From assembly GCF_003323745.1 (NCBI RefSeq), contig NZ_QOIL01000001.1, forward strand, positions 186,001 to 250,000: a stretch of DNA of 64,000 nt. The letters are read 5' to 3'. A program made the translations under genes and the position numbers. The stretch is from Sphaerisporangium album (GTDB lineage Bacteria > Actinomycetota > Actinomycetes > Streptosporangiales > Streptosporangiaceae). Under the pieces are notes generated by a model. It saw only the letters and a program-made list of their open reading frames with translations, was not told the DNA's origin and did not search any database. Position 1 is the first letter of the stretch. Every line of letters starts with the position of its first letter. Positions 53,197 through 63,916 of this stretch are shown piece after piece.

Positions 53197-53245
53197 CGGC
53201 CCCCTCGGCAGGCCCCGGCCGCCCGCGTTGGCTACCCTTCCGTGC

Positions 53246-53851
53246 ATGCTGAAGATCGGGCTGACGGGTGGGATCGGATCCGGGAAGAGCGAGGTGTCCC
53301 GGCGCCTGGCGGACCATGGCGCGGTGGTCATCGACGCCGACAAGATCGCGCGGGAGGTCGTCGAGCCGGGGACGAGCGGCCTGGCCCTCGTCGTCGAGAC
53401 CTTCGGCCCGGGCGTGCTCCGCGAGGACGGCACGCTCAACCGGGAGAAACTCGGCCAGATCGTGTTTCCCGACCCCGAGAAGCTCAAGCGGCTCAACGCG
53501 ATCGTCCACCCGAGGGTGGGGGAGCGCATGGCCGAGCTGCAACGGCGGGCCCCGTCGGACGCCGTCGTGGTCTACGACGTGCCGCTGCTGGCCGAGAACG
53601 GCCTGGCGCCGATGTACGACCTGGTGATCGTGGTGGACGCCTCCGACGAGGTGCGCCTGGAGCGCCTGGTCACCCTGCGCGGCATGTCGCGGGAGGACGC
53701 CCTGGCGCGCGTCCGGGCCCAGGCGTCCCGGGAGGACCGGCTGAAGATCGCCGACATCGTCGTGACCAACGAGGGCGGCCTGGACGATCTGGACGCCCGC
53801 GTCGCCGAGGTGTGGCACCAGCTCCAGGCCCGCCGCGACCGCCCCGCCTGA
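53246..53851 (+). CDS. coaE: dephospho-CoA kinase
   Basis: 201 residues from ATG 53246; six in-frame codons upstream are not conserved. It adds phosphate to the ribose of dephospho-CoA, the last step of CoA synthesis. It has the P-loop [13 protein letters not shown], the lid and substrate segments [31 protein letters not shown] and [13 protein letters not shown]. Unlike the M. tuberculosis protein it has no C-terminal GrpB-like extension. It converges, with a 16-base gap, with the giant TIR-NACHT gene. Confidence 0.96.
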
Positions 53852-53867
53852 CGCTCGGGGGGCGGGC

Positions 53868-56800
53868 TCAGAACTCGGCGTCGAGCGGGATCTGCCGCAC
53901 GCCCGGAAGGTAGGGGTCCAGTTCGCCGGGGTCGAACCTGCACATGCCGATCACGAACCAGAACTGGCCGGCGACGTCCCCCTCGGTCTTGTACCGGCCG
54001 TCGGGGCTGAACGCCGCCCAGCCCTCGGGCAGGCCGAGCAGCGTGGCCCGCCGGACGGGCGTCTCGCCGGTGAGGTCCCAGAGGATGACCACGCCGTCGT
54101 CCCCCGCGCTGGCCAGCCGGTCGCCCGAGGGGCTGAAGGCGAGCGAGCCGATCCGGCGGGTGTGGCCCACGAGCGTGTGCAGGTGGGCGCCGGACTCGGT
54201 GTCCCACAGCCGGACGACCAGATCGTCCCCGCCGGTGGCGAGCCGGCGGCCGTCGGGGCTGAAGTCCAGCGTCCACAGGCGCCCGGTGTGCCGCCGCAAC
54301 GTGTGCAGCAGATCGGCCGACCAGGGCCCGCCCTCGGGGCCGAGCCGCCAGACGCGGGCCGTCCCGTCGTTGCTCGCGCTCGCGAGCAGCCTGCCCGTCG
54401 GGTCGAACCGCACGGCGTACACACGGTCGGAGTGCCCGTCCAGGGTGGCCAGGCGCATGCCCGTCCCGGCGTCCCACAGCCGCACCATGCGGTCGTCGCA
54501 GCCGGTGGCGATGGTGGCGCCGCCGGGGCTGAAGTCGATCGAGCGCACGCGACCCCGGTGCTCGGCGAGGCTGCCGACCTCCCGGCCGGAGGTGCGGTAC
54601 CAGAGGCGGACGCTGTCGTCGTCGTTGGCCGTGGCCAGGATCTCGCCGTCGGGGCTGAACGCCTCTGCCCAGACGTGGTCGGTCTCGACGTCCAGCTCGC
54701 GCTCGAAGGCGGAGGAGGAGAGGTTCCACAGGTAGACCCCGCCGTCGTTGCTGGCGGTGGCCAGCAGGGGACCGGCCGGGCTGAAGATCGCCGAGATGAG
54801 GCGGTCGGCCGAGCCGGTGAGCTCGCGCAGGCGTCGCCCGGTGCGCGGATCCCACAGCCGGACGTAGCCGTCGTTGCCGCAGGTGGCGAGCATGGTGCCG
54901 TCGGCGCTGAACCGCACGGCCGTGATGCGGCGGCCGTGGCCGCGCAGCGTGTGCCGGCACTGGCCGCTGTCGGGGTCCCACAGCCGGGCGGTGCCGTCGT
55001 TGCTCGCCGTGGCCAGCTGGCGGCCGTCGGGGCGGAACGCGAACGGCCACACCGACCCCCGGTGCCCGGCCAGCTCGGCACGCCGGCGGCCGGTCTCCGG
55101 GTCCCACACGCGCACGACGCCGTCGCTGTCGCCGGTGGCCAGCACGCCGCCGTCCGGGGAGAAGAGCACCTGGTAGACCGCGCCGGAGTGCCCCTGGAGC
55201 ACGTTGACGGCCTGCCCGCGGCGGGGGTCCCACAGCCGTACCCCGCCCGAGGTGTCGCCGGAGGCCAGCAGGTCGCCCGACGGGTGGAAGTCCAGGGCGT
55301 ACACCCGGCCCGTGTGGCCGCGCAGGTCGTGCAGCGGCTCGCCGGTGAGCGGGTCCCAGACGCGCACGACCCCGGTGTGGTCCCCGGCGGCCAGCATGCG
55401 GCCGTCCGGGCTGAGCACCAGCCGGTACACCGTGCCGCGGTGGCCGGTCAGCGCGTGGACGAGGGAGCCGGTGGCGAGGTCCCAGACGCGGATCGCGCCC
55501 CCGGCGTCGCCGGTGACGAGCCTGCCGGGCAGGAAGACCACGGTGTAGATCGGCGCGGTGTGGCCGGGGAGCGCGGCGACGTGCGCGCCGGTGAGGGCGG
55601 ACCACACGTTCATCACCCCGTCGGCCCCGCCCGCCGCGATCAGGTCCCCGGCCGGGTCGGCCACGACCGGCCAGACCCCCTCGGAGTGTCCGGCGCGCAC
55701 ATGGCGCATCTCCCCGGTGAGGGGATCCCAGACGCGCACGGCGCCGTCGGCCGCGCCGGTCACCAGCACGCCAGGGGCGTACGCCACCGAGTACACCCGC
55801 CCGCGGTGGCCGTGCAGGGTGCGCAGCGGCGCGCCGGTGACGGTGTCGCAGATGAGCACGCCGCCGTCCTCGCTGCCGAGGGCGAGCAGGCCGCCGTCGG
55901 GGCTGTAGGCGACGGGACTGGGAAGGCGGCTGCTCTGGTAGTGGTACCCGTAGGGCACGCCGATCTGCGGCGGCGCGAGCTCGGGGGTCACCGGGTGGCC
56001 GGGGACGATCGCCGCGCCGTGCAGCGCGGGGTCGGAGGCCAGGGCGGGGGAGGCGGTGACGTCGATGAGGGCCGCGCGGCTCCACCGGCCGCCCTCGACG
56101 GCGGCGTCGCGCAGGTCGGCGCGCGAGAGGCGGGCGCGGCTGAGGTCGGCGCCGCGCAGGTCGGCCCCGGCCAGGACGGCCTCGTCGAGCCGGGCGCCGG
56201 TGAGGCGCGCGTCGCGCAGGACCGCCCGGGACAGGTTGGTGCCGACGAGCCGGGCGTCGGTCAGGTCCGCCCCGGTGAGGTCGACGCCGGCGAAGTGACG
56301 GTAGGACAGGTCCTCGCCGCTCAGGCGCGCGCCGCGCAGGTCCGTCCGCGCGGGGGTGCGCAGACGGGTGGTGATCTTGATGGCGTTGGCCCGCGCGGTG
56401 TCGTCCGCGTCGGGGTCGCTGAGGGTGGCGCCCGCCCACGCCTGAAGCGGGGCGGTGTCGGCGAGGTCGCACAGGAAGTCGACGATCAGCGCCGACAGGG
56501 GCCGCCGCGACAGGTTCTCGTCCAGGGTGCCGGCCAGGTGGCGGGCGACCAGCCACTCCATCACCGAGGCGTGGATGAAGCCGAACAGCCCCTCGTCGGT
56601 GCGGACGAGCAGGCCGCCGGTGCCCATGGCGTGGGCGGTCTGGCCGGCCGACAGGCGGCTGCCGGCCAGATCGGCCAGCGTCTCGGCGACCTCGGCCAGG
56701 TCGTCGGGCTGAAGGTAAGCCTCGCCGCTCTCCCACAGGCGCAACGCCAGGGTCGTCGCCGCCCGCCACAGCTCCTCGGCGGTCAGGCCGCCCGGTGCCC

Positions 56801-59615
56801 CGGGAACGTGGGTGCGCAGCTCCTCGAACCGCAGCCAGTGGTCGAGGATCTCGGCGTACAGCCCGGCCGCGCTGAGCGTGTCGCCCGCCTGGGCCGCCGC
56901 GCGCAGGCGGTCGTCGGGCAGGTCGGCGATGAAGCCGAGCATGCGCGGGTTCTGGGCCAGCCCGAGCAGGTCGGAGATCCCGGTGATCATGCTCATGCGC
57001 TCGTCGGCCTCGTCCGCGTCCCCGCCGTACCGGTTGAGCAGGTACGCCCTGACCTGGGCGGGGGTGAACTCCTCCACGCTGAGCACCCGCCGCTGCGGTA
57101 GGGTGCCGACCCGCTCGCCGAGCGCCGTCAGCACCTGGGCGTGCGACTTGAAGTGCTGCGTGCGGCTCGCCACCACGATCTTGGCCTTGTCCTCGGCCGC
57201 CTGGAGCAGCGTGTCGAGGTGGTCGGCGGCGCGTTCGTACGTGACCCGGGTGACCAGCTCGTCGAAGCCGTCGAACAGCAGGACGATGCGGCCCTGGCGC
57301 AGCATGTAGTGGAACGCCTTGAGGTCGATCAGCTCCTCGCCGTGGTTGGCGAGGTGGGCCGCCACCAGGCCGTCCACCGAGTGCGCCTTGTCCAGGGCGC
57401 GCAGCTCGATGAAGATCGGGGTCAGGTGGGGGAGCTCGGCGGGGATCCTGCGCGCCACCTCGCGCAGCGCGAACGTCTTACCGCGCCCGAAGTCGCCGAG
57501 CAGCAGCACGAACCTGCCGTGGTCGGCCGCCAGCAGCCGCATCAGCTCGCCGACCAGGTCGTCGCGCACCCCCGCGACCGCGCGGTCGACGTCACGGAAC
57601 CGCTGCGGGACGTACAGCGCCGGCGGGTAGCGGCGGTCGTCCCGCAGCCGGGCGCTCTGCTCGGCGACGTGCTCGGACAGGTCGAGCAGCCCCTGGAACT
57701 CGGTGAAGCTGCGCAGGCGCACGCCCAGGCGCAGCGCGTCGTCGCGGACCTGCCGGGACGGGGCCGGTCCCTGGTACACCAGCTCGGAGCCGTGCTCCAG
57801 CCCGGCCGCGTGGACGTGCCGCAGGAAGGACGTGACGTCCTCGCCGGTCGGCGTCCCGGCGTGGGCCCCGATGAGCTGCTGGCGGACGAAGCCGTCCTCG
57901 GCGAGCGTGACGAGCAGGTGGGGCGGGTCGCCCGCCACCTTGCGGATGCGCGCCCGCTCGCTGCGCGTCTCGCACACCTCGGCGATCCTGTCGAGCAGCA
58001 GGCCGGCCGGGCCGGCCTCGCGGGCCGGCTCGCCGCCGGTGTCCGGCGGGGCCTCCAGCGGGTTCAGCGCGGCCTGCGGGGTGGCGGACGGGGGAAACGT
58101 CCCCCGCACCGCGCGCCGGTCGTACGAGAGCTCCTGGGGCGGGGAGAGGGCGGACCGGTCGCGTGCCCAGCGGCGCAGCCCCGCCGGGCCCACCTCGATG
58201 ATCTGGTGGCGTCCCGGCGCCAGGGACGGCACGCACGGAACCTCGCCGATCCAGCCCACCTCGTCGGGGCCGCCGCCGTGCACCAGCAGGTTGAGCCGCG
58301 GCCCGAGCAGCTCGGCGAGCGTCTCGGCGTCGCGCAGCGCGGCCGGGGCATGGCCGAGGACGCCCACGCGCAGCCAGCCGGTCTCCTCGAAGGGACGCAG
58401 GCGCTCGGCGAACCACGCGGCCTGGGCCTGGCCGAGCCAGCCGTGGGAGTCCTCCTCGCGGTGGCTCATCGCCATCGTGGAGTTCAGCCCTGCCGCGACG
58501 ACCCGCAGCTCCGGCTCGGCGAACAGGCTCCACGGCTGGGCGCTGTCGAAGTCGAGGTCGGTGAGCCCCTGGTAGACGTCCTTGAACAAGCCGGAGAAGT
58601 GGCGCCACTTCGGCCAGTACGGCGGCTGGGGCGCCACGTCGTCGGCCTCGCAGGTGGCGAAGTAGGCGCGGCTGGCGGCCTTGGTGACGTCGCGCGGCCC
58701 CGGGACGATCACCACGCGGCGGGGTTCGAGCCCGAGCAGCACGCGCAGGCCGGTGAGGAACGCCAGCGCCTCGCCGTACTCTCGGATGCTGCCGGACTCG
58801 GTGATGTCGCCGGTGACCAGCAGCAGGTCGGGACGGGGCACGCCCGCGTCCGCCAGCCGGGTCAGATCGGCCCAGATGCTCGACTGCAACTCCCCTGCGC
58901 CGAGCGGCTCGTCCGCCTCGGCCAGGCCGCGGCCGAAGCGGGGTCCCGCGACGTGCAGCAGCGTGATCGCCTCGCGCTCGCCCCGCCCGGGGCCGCCGGA
59001 GGGGAACGCGGGCGGCGTCACGGGGGTCCTGCGCGCCGCGGGGACGCCTCCCGGGTCGGCGCGCGGCGGCGCCTCCGTCCGCGCCTCCGTCCGGGCCACG
59101 CCCCCCCTGGTGCCGTCGCGCACGACGGTGCCCGGGATCGTCCTGGCGGGGACGGCGGGGAAGCCGGGCTGCTCGGCGGGCTTGGCCCGTCCCGCCAGCG
59201 TGTGGCGGATGCGGCTGAGCAGCAGCGACCTGGCCTCGGCGGCGTCGGAGACCCCCACCATGTCGACCCAGGTGATCGTGGACAGCAGGCCCTCCAGCGG
59301 GCAGTCCTCGATGCGGATCGTCACCAGTCGATTGCCGGGGTTGTCCGGGTCGGCGCGGAACGCGGTCAGCCATTCCTGCCGCCCGAACCGCGAGCCCAGG
59401 TAGTTGCGCGACAGGACGGCGACGATCAGCCCGGCCTCGCTGACCCCGCGGTCCATGAAGTCCACGAAGTTCGTGCCCGGCACGAAGTCCCAGGCCTGGA
59501 GCATGGTGCGGTAGCCCGCGGCCTCCAGCTGCCAGGCGATCCAGGACGCCCAGCGCTCGTCGGCGGGCGAGTAGCTCACGAAGATGTCGATCCGCGTGCC
59601 GTCCCGGTCGTCCAC
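53868..59615 (-). CDS. giant TIR / phosphoesterase-like / NACHT / pentapeptide / WD40 protein
   Basis: 1915 residues from GTG 59615 (GAGGGG six bases upstream, right before the TIR domain); ATG 59708 would add a low-complexity Arg/Asp tail. Domains: TIR (8-140) with FVSYSPADERWASW and a candidate NADase Glu81 in RQEW. A calcineurin-like phosphoesterase domain (217-455) keeps TGDIT (268-272) and GHAP (421-424) but reads AGPRFG, VPGPRD and VHGGGP where D-x-H, GNH(D/E) and GHxH are expected. A NACHT NTPase follows (about 700-850): GDFGRGKT 707-714 and LLFDGFDEL 779-787. Then a helical part, pentapeptide repeats (1091-1175) and 15 WD40 repeats (about 1220-1870). The C-tail is of a type shared with other actinomycete WD40 proteins. 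This layout is that of a STAND-type sensor. I infer defence: WD40 sensing, NACHT oligomerisation, TIR NAD depletion. Confidence 0.9.
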   Translation of the reverse strand: MDDRDGTRIDIFVSYSPADERWASWIAWQLEAAGYRTMLQAWDFVPGTNFVDFMDRGVSEAGLIVAVLSRNYLGSRFGRQEWLTAFRADPDNPGNRLVTIRIEDCPLEGLLSTITWVDMVGVSDAAEARSLLLSRIRHTLAGRAKPAEQPGFPAVPARTIPGTVVRDGTRGGVARTEARTEAPPRADPGGVPAARRTPVTPPAFPSGGPGRGEREAITLLHVAGPRFGRGLAEADEPLGAGELQSSIWADLTRLADAGVPRPDLLLVTGDITESGSIREYGEALAFLTGLRVLLGLEPRRVVIVPGPRDVTKAASRAYFATCEADDVAPQPPYWPKWRHFSGLFKDVYQGLTDLDFDSAQPWSLFAEPELRVVAAGLNSTMAMSHREEDSHGWLGQAQAAWFAERLRPFEETGWLRVGVLGHAPAALRDAETLAELLGPRLNLLVHGGGPDEVGWIGEVPCVPSLAPGRHQIIEVGPAGLRRWARDRSALSPPQELSYDRRAVRGTFPPSATPQAALNPLEAPPDTGGEPAREAGPAGLLLDRIAEVCETRSERARIRKVAGDPPHLLVTLAEDGFVRQQLIGAHAGTPTGEDVTSFLRHVHAAGLEHGSELVYQGPAPSRQVRDDALRLGVRLRSFTEFQGLLDLSEHVAEQSARLRDDRRYPPALYVPQRFRDVDRAVAGVRDDLVGELMRLLAADHGRFVLLLGDFGRGKTFALREVARRIPAELPHLTPIFIELRALDKAHSVDGLVAAHLANHGEELIDLKAFHYMLRQGRIVLLFDGFDELVTRVTYERAADHLDTLLQAAEDKAKIVVASRTQHFKSHAQVLTALGERVGTLPQRRVLSVEEFTPAQVRAYLLNRYGGDADEADERMSMITGISDLLGLAQNPRMLGFIADLPDDRLRAAAQAGDTLSAAGLYAEILDHWLRFEELRTHVPGAPGGLTAEELWRAATTLALRLWESGEAYLQPDDLAEVAETLADLAGSRLSAGQTAHAMGTGGLLVRTDEGLFGFIHASVMEWLVARHLAGTLDENLSRRPLSALIVDFLCDLADTAPLQAWAGATLSDPDADDTARANAIKITTRLRTPARTDLRGARLSGEDLSYRHFAGVDLTGADLTDARLVGTNLSRAVLRDARLTGARLDEAVLAGADLRGADLSRARLSRADLRDAAVEGGRWSRAALIDVTASPALASDPALHGAAIVPGHPVTPELAPPQIGVPYGYHYQSSRLPSPVAYSPDGGLLALGSEDGGVLICDTVTGAPLRTLHGHRGRVYSVAYAPGVLVTGAADGAVRVWDPLTGEMRHVRAGHSEGVWPVVADPAGDLIAAGGADGVMNVWSALTGAHVAALPGHTAPIYTVVFLPGRLVTGDAGGAIRVWDLATGSLVHALTGHRGTVYRLVLSPDGRMLAAGDHTGVVRVWDPLTGEPLHDLRGHTGRVYALDFHPSGDLLASGDTSGGVRLWDPRRGQAVNVLQGHSGAVYQVLFSPDGGVLATGDSDGVVRVWDPETGRRRAELAGHRGSVWPFAFRPDGRQLATASNDGTARLWDPDSGQCRHTLRGHGRRITAVRFSADGTMLATCGNDGYVRLWDPRTGRRLRELTGSADRLISAIFSPAGPLLATASNDGGVYLWNLSSSAFERELDVETDHVWAEAFSPDGEILATANDDDSVRLWYRTSGREVGSLAEHRGRVRSIDFSPGGATIATGCDDRMVRLWDAGTGMRLATLDGHSDRVYAVRFDPTGRLLASASNDGTARVWRLGPEGGPWSADLLHTLRRHTGRLWTLDFSPDGRRLATGGDDLVVRLWDTESGAHLHTLVGHTRRIGSLAFSPSGDRLASAGDDGVVILWDLTGETPVRRATLLGLPEGWAAFSPDGRYKTEGDVAGQFWFVIGMCRFDPGELDPYLPGVRQIPLDAEF

Positions 59616-59973
59616 GTCGCACCCCTCGCCTGATCCGTCGCCGCGCCGCCTTCGGCCGCGCACCCGGTCATCCGCCCGCACCGGCTCCGCGCACGGCTCC
59701 TCCGCCATCGCCGCAGCCGGTCCTCCACCCTGGGGGGCTCCGCGTACGGCCGTCCTACCCTGACCGGCTCCGCGTACGGCCCTCCGCCGAGGTGCCGGTC
59801 ACGGCCCGGCGCCCGCCGACCGGCCCGTGTGCCCGGCCGGTGAGGCTGTGGTGACGCCCTCCCTCGTGTGACGACCACGCCGGCGCGCGGGTTCACCGGC
59901 GTCATTATCTCCTTTGCGGCCGGGGCTTTCGAGGACTTGGATCATTCGGGCGATGTTGGATCGGTGTGGGATC
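59616..59973. other. 358-base divergent promoter region with three direct repeats
   Basis: It lies between the TIR-NACHT gene (-) and the permease gene (+). Three copies of GGCTCCGCG(T/C)ACGGC start at 59683, 59736 and 59766. No separate gene is seen; an ATG at 59708 could extend the TIR protein. Confidence 0.5.
59683..59780. repeat. three direct repeats upstream of the TIR-NACHT gene
   Basis: 15-base units GGCTCCGCGCACGGC (59683), GGCTCCGCGTACGGC (59736) and GGCTCCGCGTACGGC (59766). The second and third are identical and the first has one change. The spacings of 53 and 30 bases are not multiples of one helical turn. They could be regulator sites or remnants of duplication. Confidence 0.5.
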
Positions 59974-61164
59974 ATGGCGCGCGTGAAGTGGCGGCCGAGT
60001 GTCCTCGACGGGGTCAGGATCGGCGTGCTCGCCGCGGGCCTGCTGTGCGTGGCCACCGGCCTGCTGCCCGCCGGCGAGGCGTCCGACAACGTCCGGCGCA
60101 TCGGGCCGTTGCTGCTGTTCCTGGCCGCGGTGATCGTCCTGGCCGAGCTGACCAAGGAGGCGAACGTCTTCGACGTGCTCGCCGGGCGGCTGGCGATCAT
60201 CGGCCGCGGCAACTACGCCGCACTGTTCGTGCTTTGTACGGCATTCGCGTCATTTGTCACGATATTTCTGAATCTCGATACGACGGCGGTGCTGCTGACC
60301 CCCGTCATGCTCGCCCTGGCGCCCCGCGCCCGCATCACCCCGCTGCCGCTCGCCATGACCACCATCTGGCTGGCCAACACCGCGAGCCTGCTGCTGCCGG
60401 TCTCGAACCTCACCAACCTGCTCGCCATGGGCCGGGTCGGGCTGTCCACCCGGGACTTCGCCGGGCGCATGTGGGCCCCGCAGGTGGCCTCCATCGCGGT
60501 GACCATGCTCCTGCTCTGGGTCTTCTACTGGCGGCGCGGCGAACGCGGCGAGGACAGGTACGTCCCGCCGCCACCCGCGGCCGTGGGGGACCCGGTGCTG
60601 TTCGGGGTCGCCGCCGGGGCCTGCCTGCTGTTCATCGCGGCCATCCTCGCCGGCGTCCAGATCGGCGCCGCCGCAGCCGTGGCCGCGGTGATCGTCATCG
60701 CCGCCTTCGCCTGGCGCGACCGGTCCAAGCTGACCTGGGCGCTGTTCCCGTGGCAGCTCCTGGTCTTCGTGACCGGCCTGTTCCTGGTGGTCCCCACGCT
60801 CAGCCGCTACGGCCTGGGCGACCTGATGCGCGGGCTCATCGGCGACGGCGGCGACGCCCTCGGCGACTACCGGGCCGCCGCCGCCGGGGCCGGGCTGTCC
60901 AACGTCGTCAACAACCTGCCCGCCTACGCCGCGGGCGAGGCGGTCGTCCCCGCCGGCGACCACCGCCAGCTGCTGTCCCTGCTCATCGGCACCAACGTCG
61001 GGCCCGTCATCACCCCGTGGGCGTCGCTGGCCACGCTTTTGTGGTTCGAGTGGTGCCGCCGCCGCGGGGTCAGGGTGCCGATACTCAAGTTCGTCCTGAC
61101 GGGGGTCTGCCTGGCCGTCACCGGGCTCGCCGCCACGATCGGCGCACTGCTCCTGACGTCCTGA
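59974..61164 (+). CDS. ArsB/SLC13-type permease
   Basis: 396 residues from ATG 59974 (GTG 59983 is possible), with about ten helices. The family marks are ELTKEANVFDVLAGRLAIIGRG, TIFLNLDTTAVLLTPVMLALAP, LANTASLLLPVSNLTNLLA and the mirrored motif LSNVVNNLPAYAAGEAV. The two N-rich motifs form the substrate site in ArsB, NhaD and SLC13 transporters. Arsenite, dicarboxylate or cation-coupled export are all possible; no ars genes are near. A cluster of codons rare in this genome (around 60230-60290) encodes the first of these motifs. Confidence 0.88.
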   Translation: MARVKWRPSVLDGVRIGVLAAGLLCVATGLLPAGEASDNVRRIGPLLLFLAAVIVLAELTKEANVFDVLAGRLAIIGRGNYAALFVLCTAFASFVTIFLNLDTTAVLLTPVMLALAPRARITPLPLAMTTIWLANTASLLLPVSNLTNLLAMGRVGLSTRDFAGRMWAPQVASIAVTMLLLWVFYWRRGERGEDRYVPPPPAAVGDPVLFGVAAGACLLFIAAILAGVQIGAAAAVAAVIVIAAFAWRDRSKLTWALFPWQLLVFVTGLFLVVPTLSRYGLGDLMRGLIGDGGDALGDYRAAAAGAGLSNVVNNLPAYAAGEAVVPAGDHRQLLSLLIGTNVGPVITPWASLATLLWFEWCRRRGVRVPILKFVLTGVCLAVTGLAATIGALLLTS

Positions 61165-61185: not shown

Positions 61186-61995
61186 TCAGCGGGTGGCGGC
61201 GGCGACCAGGCCGAGCAGGTCGTCCACCAGCGCGGGATGCGCGGCGACGAAGCTGCGCCGCTCCGCCGGCAGGCCGGTGCGCCCGTCGAAGCGCGCCCCG
61301 TCGAAGCCGCGCACGGTCAGCCCCGCCTCCTGCGCGATCAGCAGGCCGCCCGGCAGGTCGACCGCCTCGGCGCGGTAGCCGACCACCGCGTCGATGTCCC
61401 CCCGCGCCAGCATCACCCAGCCCAGCATCGGCGCCCAGAGCTGGAGCACCCGCCGCGCGTGGACGTCCAGCGCCGCCTTCAGCGCGCGCAGCGCGGGGTC
61501 GTCGCGCGCCACGCCGTGCCCCTGCGTCCAGGCGAGCACCGGCCCGCGCGGGTCGTCGTCGTAGCGCGGGCAGGCCAGCGGTCCCTTCGGCCCCGACGCG
61601 CCCGCCCCCCTGATCGCCGACCAGGTGCGCCGCCCCACCGGGTCGTGGACGACGCCGAGCAGCGGCAGGCCCTCGTGGCACAGGGCGACCCCGACGACGT
61701 ACAGGGGCAGCCCGAGCGCGACGTTGCTGGTGCCGTCCAGCGGGTCCACCAGCCACGTCCACTCGCCGTCAGGATCGCCCGACACGCCCGACTCCTCGGC
61801 GATCACCCGGTGACCGGGGAAGGCGCCCTGGAGGCGTTCGAGCAGCAGCTTCTCGGCCGCCATGTCCAGGTCGGTGACGATGTCCCCCCCGGCCTTGGCG
61901 CGGACCTCCAGCACGCCCGAGACCCGCTCCCTGAGCAGGTCTCCCGCCGCCTCCACGGCCGCCACCGCCACCCGGCGGGCGTGATCGAGATCCAT
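61186..61995 (-). CDS. inositol-monophosphatase-family phosphatase
   Basis: 269 residues. The metal-binding motifs are VIAEESGVSG (Glu) and WLVDPLDGTSNVALGLP (DPxDGT). The third motif, normally WDxAAG, reads EAVDLPGGLLIAQEAG; the Asp is kept but the context is changed. The N-terminus has AGGDIVTDLDMAAEKLLLERL. It cleaves small sugar or nucleotide phosphates in the cytoplasm; the substrate is not certain given the variant third motif. It converges with the permease gene and lies 52 bases after the cupin gene on this strand. Confidence 0.9.
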   Translation of the reverse strand: MDLDHARRVAVAAVEAAGDLLRERVSGVLEVRAKAGGDIVTDLDMAAEKLLLERLQGAFPGHRVIAEESGVSGDPDGEWTWLVDPLDGTSNVALGLPLYVVGVALCHEGLPLLGVVHDPVGRRTWSAIRGAGASGPKGPLACPRYDDDPRGPVLAWTQGHGVARDDPALRALKAALDVHARRVLQLWAPMLGWVMLARGDIDAVVGYRAEAVDLPGGLLIAQEAGLTVRGFDGARFDGRTGLPAERRSFVAAHPALVDDLLGLVAAATR

Positions 61996-62047: not shown

Positions 62048-62698
62048 CTAGGTTCGCGCCAGGTGGTCCGCCGCCAGCCGGGCGGCCCGGGCGGTCTCCT
62101 CATCGTCGCAGCGTTCCCGCGTCACGCGGTGCCGCCGCGTGCCGAGCGGGCCCAGGGACAGGTCCGCCGCGCCGGGGCGCCCGTCGCCCAGCGCGATCGT
62201 CGCGGTGTCGATGCCCTCGGGGATCACGCTGCGGTGGAAGACGCCCGCGGGCAGCGTGTAGACCTCCCCCGTGCGGTACACCCCCGCGGCGCCCTCGGTA
62301 TAGGTGACCGTGCGGCGGGTGGGGTGGATGTCGTCCACGCCGCCTGAGCTGACCACCTCCAGCACCCGGTGGGTCGCCCCCGCCTCGCGGTCGGTCACGC
62401 CGACCAGCACGTTGCGCACCTGGCCGTACAGCACGTAGCTCACCAGATCCCAGCTGTGGCAGTGGACCTCGGAGGTGGTGTTGTCCGCGCTCGGCAGGTC
62501 TCCCGACCACAGGTGGACGCAGACGCCGCGCGCGCCGCCGCGCTCCACGGGCAGGCAGACGAAGCCGAGCGGATGGCGTACCGCCCTGATCGGGGAACGT
62601 CCCGCGGCGACGTCCTCCAGCAGGCGCAGCGCCCGGCGCGGGGTCTCCTTGGAGACGACACCCGAGGTCAGCTCGTCGTGCAGCTCCCGGTACCTCAT
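62048..62698 (-). CDS. cupin-like protein coupled to a 2-TM membrane protein
   Basis: 216 residues from ATG 62698, overlapping the previous gene's stop (ATGA); the longer ORF to 63184 is shadow. A helical N-part (1-35) leads to a beta-rich domain. It has VHCHSWDLVSYVLYGQ (His79, His81, then Gly92), a classic cupin motif 1 pattern, and LPAGVFHRSVIP (His155), matching motif 2. Metal binding by these His is likely. VHLWSGDLPSADNTTSEVHCH resembles metal-dependent oxygenases or isomerases only in a general way. The function is unknown. Strict coupling to the membrane protein gene suggests a two-protein unit. Confidence 0.75.
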   Translation of the reverse strand: MRYRELHDELTSGVVSKETPRRALRLLEDVAAGRSPIRAVRHPLGFVCLPVERGGARGVCVHLWSGDLPSADNTTSEVHCHSWDLVSYVLYGQVRNVLVGVTDREAGATHRVLEVVSSGGVDDIHPTRRTVTYTEGAAGVYRTGEVYTLPAGVFHRSVIPEGIDTATIALGDGRPGAADLSLGPLGTRRHRVTRERCDDEETARAARLAADHLART

Positions 62699-63723
62699 AT
62701 CGAATACGGATTCTTCGCGCGGATGGCCTTGCGGATGATCTCGACGACGTCGCGGTCCCCGTACGACTTCGGCAGGCCGAGGCCGAGCACCTCGAACAGC
62801 TTGCGCGTCTCGTCGACGGTGGGCTCGTCGCTGAGGACGGCGGCCTTCGCCGCCTCGATGGGGACGCGCCGCGTCTGGTCGAGGCTGGACATCAGCTCGG
62901 TGGCGCAGTGGTCGTAGTAGAAGCTGCCCCGCCTGCTCATCAGCGCGCGGTTCGGGTCCTCGACCGTGATGATGACGAAGCCCGCCGACAGGTCCCAGCG
63001 GAACGTCGTCATCGTGGACGACAGCCCGAGATCGATGTCCAGCAGGCTGAACCGCTGGCGGTGCCAGCACGACGCCAGGATCGTCGCGTACGACTCCTTG
63101 CGGGTGCGGTCCACCGTCCAGTACTCGCCGGTGCCGTCGGGGGCCTCCGACACCGACCGGCGGAAGCGCACGTACGCCTCGCACACGCCGAGGTGGGTCG
63201 GGTCGATGATCTCCAGCCGCATGAGCAGCGCCCTTCGCTCCCTGCGGGCGGCGACGACCAGGTCGGGCAGCGTCACCGCGCGCACGTACGTGCCCGTGCC
63301 GCCCTTGAAGCTCCAGCGGTCGGTGGCGCGGCGGGCCTCGGCGTGGGCCTCGGCGATCTCGTCGGCCCCGTTGAGCACCTGGACGGCCTGCAGGTCGTCC
63401 AGGACGCGGCGGGCGCTCTCGACGACGGCCTCCAGCCGGTCCAGGCGGTCCAGGCGCGCGGGGAGGTCGGCGAGCGCGCCCGAGGTGGTGCGGAAGTTCT
63501 CCTTGATCGTCTCTTCCATGGGCTCCTGGCGCCAGCGGTCGCGCAGGATCGCGGCGGTCAGCAGGCCGAGCACCAGCAGCGTCACGCCGTTGATCAGGTC
63601 GCTCTTGTCCTGCCCCAGGACGCGGTCACCCGAGGCCAGGCCGAGGAAGGCGATGAAGACGGCCAGCAGCAGAGCGATGACGCCGTCGGCGTTCTTGCCC
63701 AGCCACCCTACGAATTTCCCCAT
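62695..63723 (-). CDS. 2-TM membrane protein with cytoplasmic effector-like domain
   Basis: 342 residues from ATG 63723; the frame is open to 63894 with alternative ATG 63774. Helices at about 14-31 (VIALLLAVFIAFLGLA) and 45-60 (NGVTLLVLGLLTAAIL) form a hairpin. A likely coiled coil (80-112, with ALADLPARLDRLDRLEAVVESARRVLDDL) follows. A soluble domain of about 200 residues comes next, with DRWSFKGGTGTYVRAVTLPDL, IIDPTHLGVCEAYVRFRRSV, RQRFSLLDIDLGLSSTMTTF and GSFYYDHCATELMSSL. No known family is recognised. The layout (membrane anchor, coiled coil, sensor or effector) is common in defence systems. The stop overlaps the cupin start. It is divergent from uvrB. Confidence 0.7.
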   Translation of the reverse strand: MGKFVGWLGKNADGVIALLLAVFIAFLGLASGDRVLGQDKSDLINGVTLLVLGLLTAAILRDRWRQEPMEETIKENFRTTSGALADLPARLDRLDRLEAVVESARRVLDDLQAVQVLNGADEIAEAHAEARRATDRWSFKGGTGTYVRAVTLPDLVVAARRERRALLMRLEIIDPTHLGVCEAYVRFRRSVSEAPDGTGEYWTVDRTRKESYATILASCWHRQRFSLLDIDLGLSSTMTTFRWDLSAGFVIITVEDPNRALMSRRGSFYYDHCATELMSSLDQTRRVPIEAAKAAVLSDEPTVDETRKLFEVLGLGLPKSYGDRDVVEIIRKAIRAKNPYSI

Positions 63724-63916
63724 GCGCCCCACAGCGCCCGCCCCGCCTCGACGATCAGTCAGCCCCGCCGCCATGGTAACGACATGGTCAAAGAGTGGGC
63801 CAGTATCGCGCGGGATAGCCGGTGTTGGCGGGCGTTCCGCCGCACTGGCCGTGCCCGGCCGCGGGGCAGGCCGGGAGCCCTGGGTGAGCGCCACCGGAAA
63901 TGTCGGTGGCCCGGCG

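Follow-up and report, generated by a model that had tools for sequence, protein, structure and literature searches.

Why should a large protein related to the immune receptors of animals and plants reside among the housekeeping genes of an actinobacterium, and why should it carry a phosphoesterase fold behind its effector domain? Both questions are raised by a TIR-STAND gene of Sphaerisporangium album that lies in the 64,000-nucleotide stretch of DNA analysed here as a whole (the window). Its product runs in a single chain from TIR through a metallophosphoesterase-fold domain (MPE), NA-iREase3 and NACHT to pentapeptide and WD40 repeats (Table 1). A Pfam domain search confirmed that the TIR, phosphoesterase-like, NACHT, pentapeptide and WD40 parts named in a preliminary description all stand in one chain; NA-iREase3, between MPE and NACHT, had been overlooked there. 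Two long open frames overlap the gene, at 54162-57101 (+, 979 aa) and 53572-56769 (-, 1065 aa), and are probably artefacts of the GC content of about 75%. Elsewhere in the window, 62698-63894 (-) encodes a 399-aa protein whose only Pfam match is below threshold (holin-X like, E 0.0009).

Table 1. Positions in the window of the TIR-STAND gene, its domains and its conserved neighbours.
Feature	Position	Strand	Remarks
coaE	53228..53851	+	directly before the transporter in genomes without the STAND gene
TIR-STAND gene	53868..59615	-	1915 aa, GTG start; alternative ATG at 59708
WD40 repeats, presumed sensor	53982..55898	-	14 Pfam stretches
Pentapeptide repeats	56055..56390	-	
NACHT ATPase core	57036..57515	-	Walker A 57474-57497, Walker B 57255-57281
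NA-iREase3 (NACHT-associated inactive restriction endonuclease)	57678..58001	-	PF22739, 138 bits vs cut-off 27
MPE domain	58116..58982	-	most metal ligands gone
TIR_2 domain	59229..59585	-	Pfam E 7e-33
Candidate catalytic Glu81 codon of TIR	59373-59375	-	
ArsB/CitMHS-type transporter	59914..61164	+	divergent neighbour of TIR-STAND gene, conserved partner
Inositol-monophosphatase (IMPase)-family gene	61186..61995	-	weaker conserved neighbour

The view that a TIR effector, a NACHT switch and a repeat sensor are joined in this protein holds up, with conservation of both the candidate catalytic Glu81 and the nucleotide-binding motifs. Walker A and Walker B of the NACHT domain are invariant across 34 aligned sequences (33 of 35 intended relatives included); the NACHT part matches NLRC4, and the NLR-like fold is accompanied by C-terminal repeats. 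The iREase sequence, compared with solved structures, matched nothing up to E 10. Of 68 profile-aligned TIRs, 63 have the glutamate, as do all 43 readable TIRs of the window's clade; judged by sequence, both TIR-family membership and the candidate catalytic Glu, as expected of NADase TIR effectors, are present. TIR domains can also serve as scaffolds. Over 11 pairs of TIR-STAND orthologs, the TIR is the most constrained domain of the protein (median dN/dS 0.057), followed by the pentapeptide repeats (0.15), MPE (0.168), iREase (0.179), NACHT (0.199), WD40 repeats (0.23) and the TIR-MPE linker (0.299). Because of these values, the TIR appears to act like a working effector and the MPE like a retained part.

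The MPE had been described as an unusual addition, a view that its distribution does not support: it marks an earlier effector site. Relatives without a TIR begin with it and have it intact; in the window's clade it looks dead. We aligned 79 relatives and judged by motif the eight residues with recognised roles as metal ligands (D, H/Q, D, N, H, H, H, H). All eight are kept in 6/6 proteins that have no other N-terminal effector (one of these, G557, has 300 unread bases (N) in its locus, and its lack of a TIR is less sure), whereas each of the 40 TIR proteins scored from the window's clade keeps 0-3 of the eight, the window protein one or two. None of these 40 has the first Asp or the Gln/His that follows it, and none has the Asn of GNHD or the last His. 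Three clade members found through the GNHD pattern (L140-L142, counted among the 45 clade loci and outside the 40 scored) keep GNHD and have lost the first and last motifs; all loci found by patterns with intact MPE motifs (L133-L146) were excluded from the ligand counts. Two of the 15 other TIR proteins have all eight ligands, and nine TIR relatives lack any MPE to score. Six fragmentary or frameshifted proteins (G616b, G581a, G573b, G630, G503 and G048) stand outside these classes, and G448a, which the TIR profile missed, counts as a TIR protein on visual inspection and a forced alignment. Among decayed proteins with a readable N-terminus, decay is met only alongside another N-terminal effector-like domain.

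A separate alignment to the phosphodiesterase Rv0805 shows its metal-site residues replaced in the window MPE; the YydB model 9a6c_B, ranked first, is grouped with Rv0805 among the closest known systems. The anti-phage phosphoesterase DS9_1 (NCBIfam NF053862) resembles the MPE at E 2e-10 in the window and at 1e-29 in the intact G146, but the window protein scores 40 bits against a cut-off of 420, and its metal ligands are lost. The predicted structure retains a calcineurin-like fold, and the window's clade lacks the binuclear metal ligands of an active metallophosphoesterase: the window MPE looks like a dead enzyme. It is nevertheless under purifying selection despite the lost metal site. Decay by mere relic drift is unlikely, given a dN/dS like that of iREase and NACHT and replacement motifs conserved in much of the clade.

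How, then, did a TIR come to stand before a dead phosphoesterase? Some relatives have no TIR: in these MPE-NA-iREase3-NACHT proteins (family loci in G146, G205, G066, G234 and G006, 35-46% identical; Pirellulaceae L135) the backbone from the MPE onward is that of the window protein. Unlike the window, they have intact MPE metal motifs, no transporter in the fetched loci and, in the three compared, a sensor more divergent than that of the window's clade. In 8/8 loci of TIR-less relatives searched with the TIR profile, no separate TIR gene lay nearby. The Pirellulaceae (Planctomycetes) MAG protein (L135:6791-10435; TIR-less MPE-iREase3-NACHT-pentapeptide-WD40) is 43% identical to the actinobacterial backbone, suggesting cross-phylum transfer or misbinning.

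On a backbone tree of iREase and NACHT (85 tips, deeper nodes weak), the window's side stands beside the intact TIR-less group (joint clade support 100, TIR side 72), and decayed MPEs are nested among intact relatives; of the Frankia type, decayed G494, G573 and G623 lie beside intact G360, G581 and G557 with supports of 96-100. A TIR and an MPE with 8/8 ligands share one chain in G360a (L137, Frankia sp. CIT1) and G581b (L119), and in L146, where the first motif alone was inspected, a TIR accompanies an intact MPE motif. Because TIR and intact MPE coexist in G360 and G581, decay does not follow TIR gain at once, and L137, L119 and L146 are possible intermediates of effector replacement. A trypsin-like domain takes the place of the TIR before the MPE in L058 and L059 (G142), L055 (G012) and L139, a group with support 100 on the same tree; it rests on a Pfam match for G012 and L139 and on likeness alone for both G142 copies. 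The MPE is intact in G012, nearly intact in L139 and decayed in both G142 copies. Another protein, in an Actinomycetota MAG (L138:5255-5884), has an N-terminal stretch without Pfam match ahead of an MPE with intact motifs, possibly a further effector. The TIR tree is at odds with the backbone tree, which suggests more than one exchange of the TIR. In the order of events we propose, the MPE would be a former effector; a TIR would have been added at the N-terminus and the metal site then lost, with the dead fold kept as a structural or adaptor part. It may also serve as a decoy.

In related systems the N-terminal effector can be a TIR, a calcineurin or a trypsin domain, and inactive enzymes are proposed to act as decoys (PMC8195603 and PMC7159879). 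In the conflict systems of Kaur et al. (2020/2021), the same effector set (TIR, calcineurin, trypsin, REase) swaps N-terminally. In contrast to those systems, none of the seven annotated neighbours of the TIR-STAND gene is a vWA-MoxR or GTPase gene; the partner here is a transporter, and the protein keeps a dead effector behind the new one. A literature search that covered a minority of subscription journals and no bioRxiv preprints returned no title on a TIR-MPE-NACHT-transporter arrangement and, in the same literature, no description of a dead effector behind a new one or of a linked transporter.

The transporter changes the picture of a single-gene system in which the gene had been cast: an ArsB/CitMHS-type transporter adjoins the STAND gene in 44/45 clade loci, versus 0/40 loci of other clades, some of these control loci being cut by contig ends. 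It is divergent, at 60-90% identity, in the window's family, two Nocardia, one Pseudonocardiaceae record and families f20 and f39; in family f19, to which Frankia sp. CIT1 belongs, six loci have it downstream on the same strand, at 30-33% identity. The linkage is thus kept across a shift in gene order from divergent to downstream. At E 1e-6, the window transporter as query has as its sole match the linked transporter in five f19 (Frankiaceae-family) genomes; in the reverse search, the f19 transporter hits the linked copy alone in G000, G003 and G525. Among 297 genomes of the window's family, 105 have the window-type gene, 124 the transporter and 103 both (counts including G203, where the transporter is accompanied by a STAND gene cut off by the contig end); 21 have the transporter only and 171 neither. 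Because these 171 genomes have neither gene, shared descent inflates the association, and linkage alone is no proof that the two products interact. G203 apart, 102 genomes have both: in 100 of them the two genes neighbour each other on a single contig, and in two they are split between contigs. Over 22 loci, the correlation of STAND distances is 0.84 with transporter distances and 0.74 with coaE distances. In G207, a second copy (L071), 58% identical to the window protein, comes with a transporter of its own, and no coaE lies in that stretch; this places the pair at a second chromosomal site as well.

Around the TIR-STAND gene lie lgt, glutamate synthase, polA, coaE and an rpsA-like gene with an S1 domain. 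A mobile or island-borne defence gene is unlikely here, in view of this synteny with housekeeping genes. The preliminary description had counted consistently non-defence surroundings against a defence role, and these are half seen: the region is housekeeping, with coaE inside the fetched stretch in 24/32 family loci. Because it is outside the stretch in the other eight (the second copy of G207, G079, G071, G114, G116, G176, G182 and G172), the site is not strictly fixed.

An IMPase ortholog was found in 7/10 genomes searched, the window's included, sharing a contig with the STAND locus every time: the two are neighbours in six and about 13 kb apart in G525. Its identity outside the window's genome is 52-62%, with paralogs at 39% or less. 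In L100 and L114 of family f19, IMPase, STAND and transporter follow in a row on one strand, operon-like. The IMPase neighbour, retained even in rearranged order, would agree with a physiological regulator, a scaffold that tunes a transporter and IMPase pathway through TIR and MPE as interaction modules and causes no cell death, as would the housekeeping site, the conserved sensor described below and the retained dead MPE. We consider such a scaffold very improbable, however: the TIR is the most constrained domain and keeps its catalytic Glu, as expected of an enzyme.

Loss of the pair is one-sided. On a tree of 66 transporters rooted on f19, with many weak nodes, the distribution of STAND takes 11 Fitch changes, or 12 losses if the ancestor had it; on some 11-12 occasions STAND disappeared while the transporter stayed. 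In 17 transporter-only genomes, 40 to 472 bases separate coaE from the transporter, with no STAND pieces between. STAND remnants are kept in G009 and G191; coaE and transporter are 3.9 kb apart in G225, coaE is absent nearby in G227, and G006 and G234 have a TIR-less STAND at another place in the genome. Conversely, only two family genomes, G048 and G100, have STAND without a transporter match. Such one-sidedness would suit a poison-antidote pair, with the transporter silencing TIR-STAND or clearing a toxic product and STAND tolerated just in its presence; the frameshift inside the TIR of G048 points the same way. But the transporter persists without STAND, G100 (an assembly 86% complete) has STAND without a transporter match, and we know of no precedent for an ArsB-type carrier as antidote. 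We regard an antidote role as improbable.

What the protein senses is addressed by its C-terminal repeats. We used aligned identities because some proteins are truncated; bins hold at most 25 pairs, and some truncated proteins are included. At NACHT identities of 0.65-0.75, sensor identity is 0.61 in the window's clade (25 pairs); it falls to 0.48 among intact proteins without a TIR (3 pairs) and to 0.40 among the remaining TIR proteins (5 pairs). At 0.55-0.65 the trypsin group, at 0.50 (2 pairs), is nearly as conserved as the window's clade at 0.54. The sensor of the window's clade is more conserved than in most sister groups, and the TIR-STAND gene does not look like a typical arms-race gene. 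A sensor that responds to a conserved feature of the cell is a better fit than one that detects phage directly. These observations bear on the reading of the gene as an ordinary antiphage STAND sensor of the Avs or bNACHT kind, whose WD40 repeats would bind a phage product and whose TIR would deplete NAD+, the transporter being a bystander. The domain layout is that of known defence proteins, antiphage NACHT and phosphoesterase families of NCBIfam resemble it weakly, and repeated losses suit a costly defence gene; yet the gene lies in a housekeeping region, its sensor is more conserved than most sister groups', and the transporter linkage spans families and gene orders. An antiphage sensor of this kind seems to us unlikely.

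Avs proteins have a C-terminal TPR-like sensor, which the window protein lacks, having pentapeptide and WD40 repeats, and PADLOC gave it 7 matches with no Avs profile among them. In Thoeris a TIR gene stands beside a ThsA gene; no ThsA-type gene was found among the seven annotated neighbours (coaE, transporter and IMPase included; two without clear family). An N-terminal effector, a NACHT domain and a C-terminal sensor are common to the window protein and bacterial NACHT/STAND immune proteins (bNACHT, Avs and the NCBIfam families EruA and HyoA); unlike them, it has a WD40/pentapeptide sensor and a transporter partner. Its EruA and HyoA scores are far under the cut-offs (29 vs 1000 and 18 vs 1200 bits), and our literature search turned up no publication from which the NCBIfam names DS9, EruA and HyoA derive. 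Guarding has a precedent among bacterial NACHT proteins, since bNACHT25 requires DnaJ (PMC12169576), and indirect sensing of that style is possible for the window protein too.

We judge the chances evenly balanced that this gene is a domesticated TIR-STAND suicide switch of actinobacteria that would guard a host process, probably the linked transporter, which is the best candidate for the guarded component. The WD40 repeats would keep the NACHT ATPase off; an altered conserved cue in the cell, for which the adjacent transporter's state or function is the likeliest candidate, would free the NACHT module, which would oligomerise and bring the TIR domains together, and these would consume or convert NAD+ and stop growth or kill the cell. 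We infer the oligomerisation, the NADase activity, the transporter as the thing sensed, and the cell death or growth arrest.

A more specific version is tentative, and we hold it at less than even confidence: a bacterial NLR with a dedicated linked guardee (an ArsB-type transporter, often with an IMPase) that would kill or arrest the cell on transporter failure, for example when a phage or a rival's toxin acts at the membrane, carrying its earlier effector as a dead load-bearing domain. N-terminal effector exchange among bacterial STAND proteins has already been described; here possible intermediates of a swap are visible, from MPE alone through TIR with intact MPE and TIR with dead MPE to TIR without MPE. 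The guard hypothesis can be tested in this clade, in which the partner gene is named and adjacent and there are natural empty sites and natural loss variants. If the tentative version is true, replacement of an NLR effector can run by stacking and inactivation.
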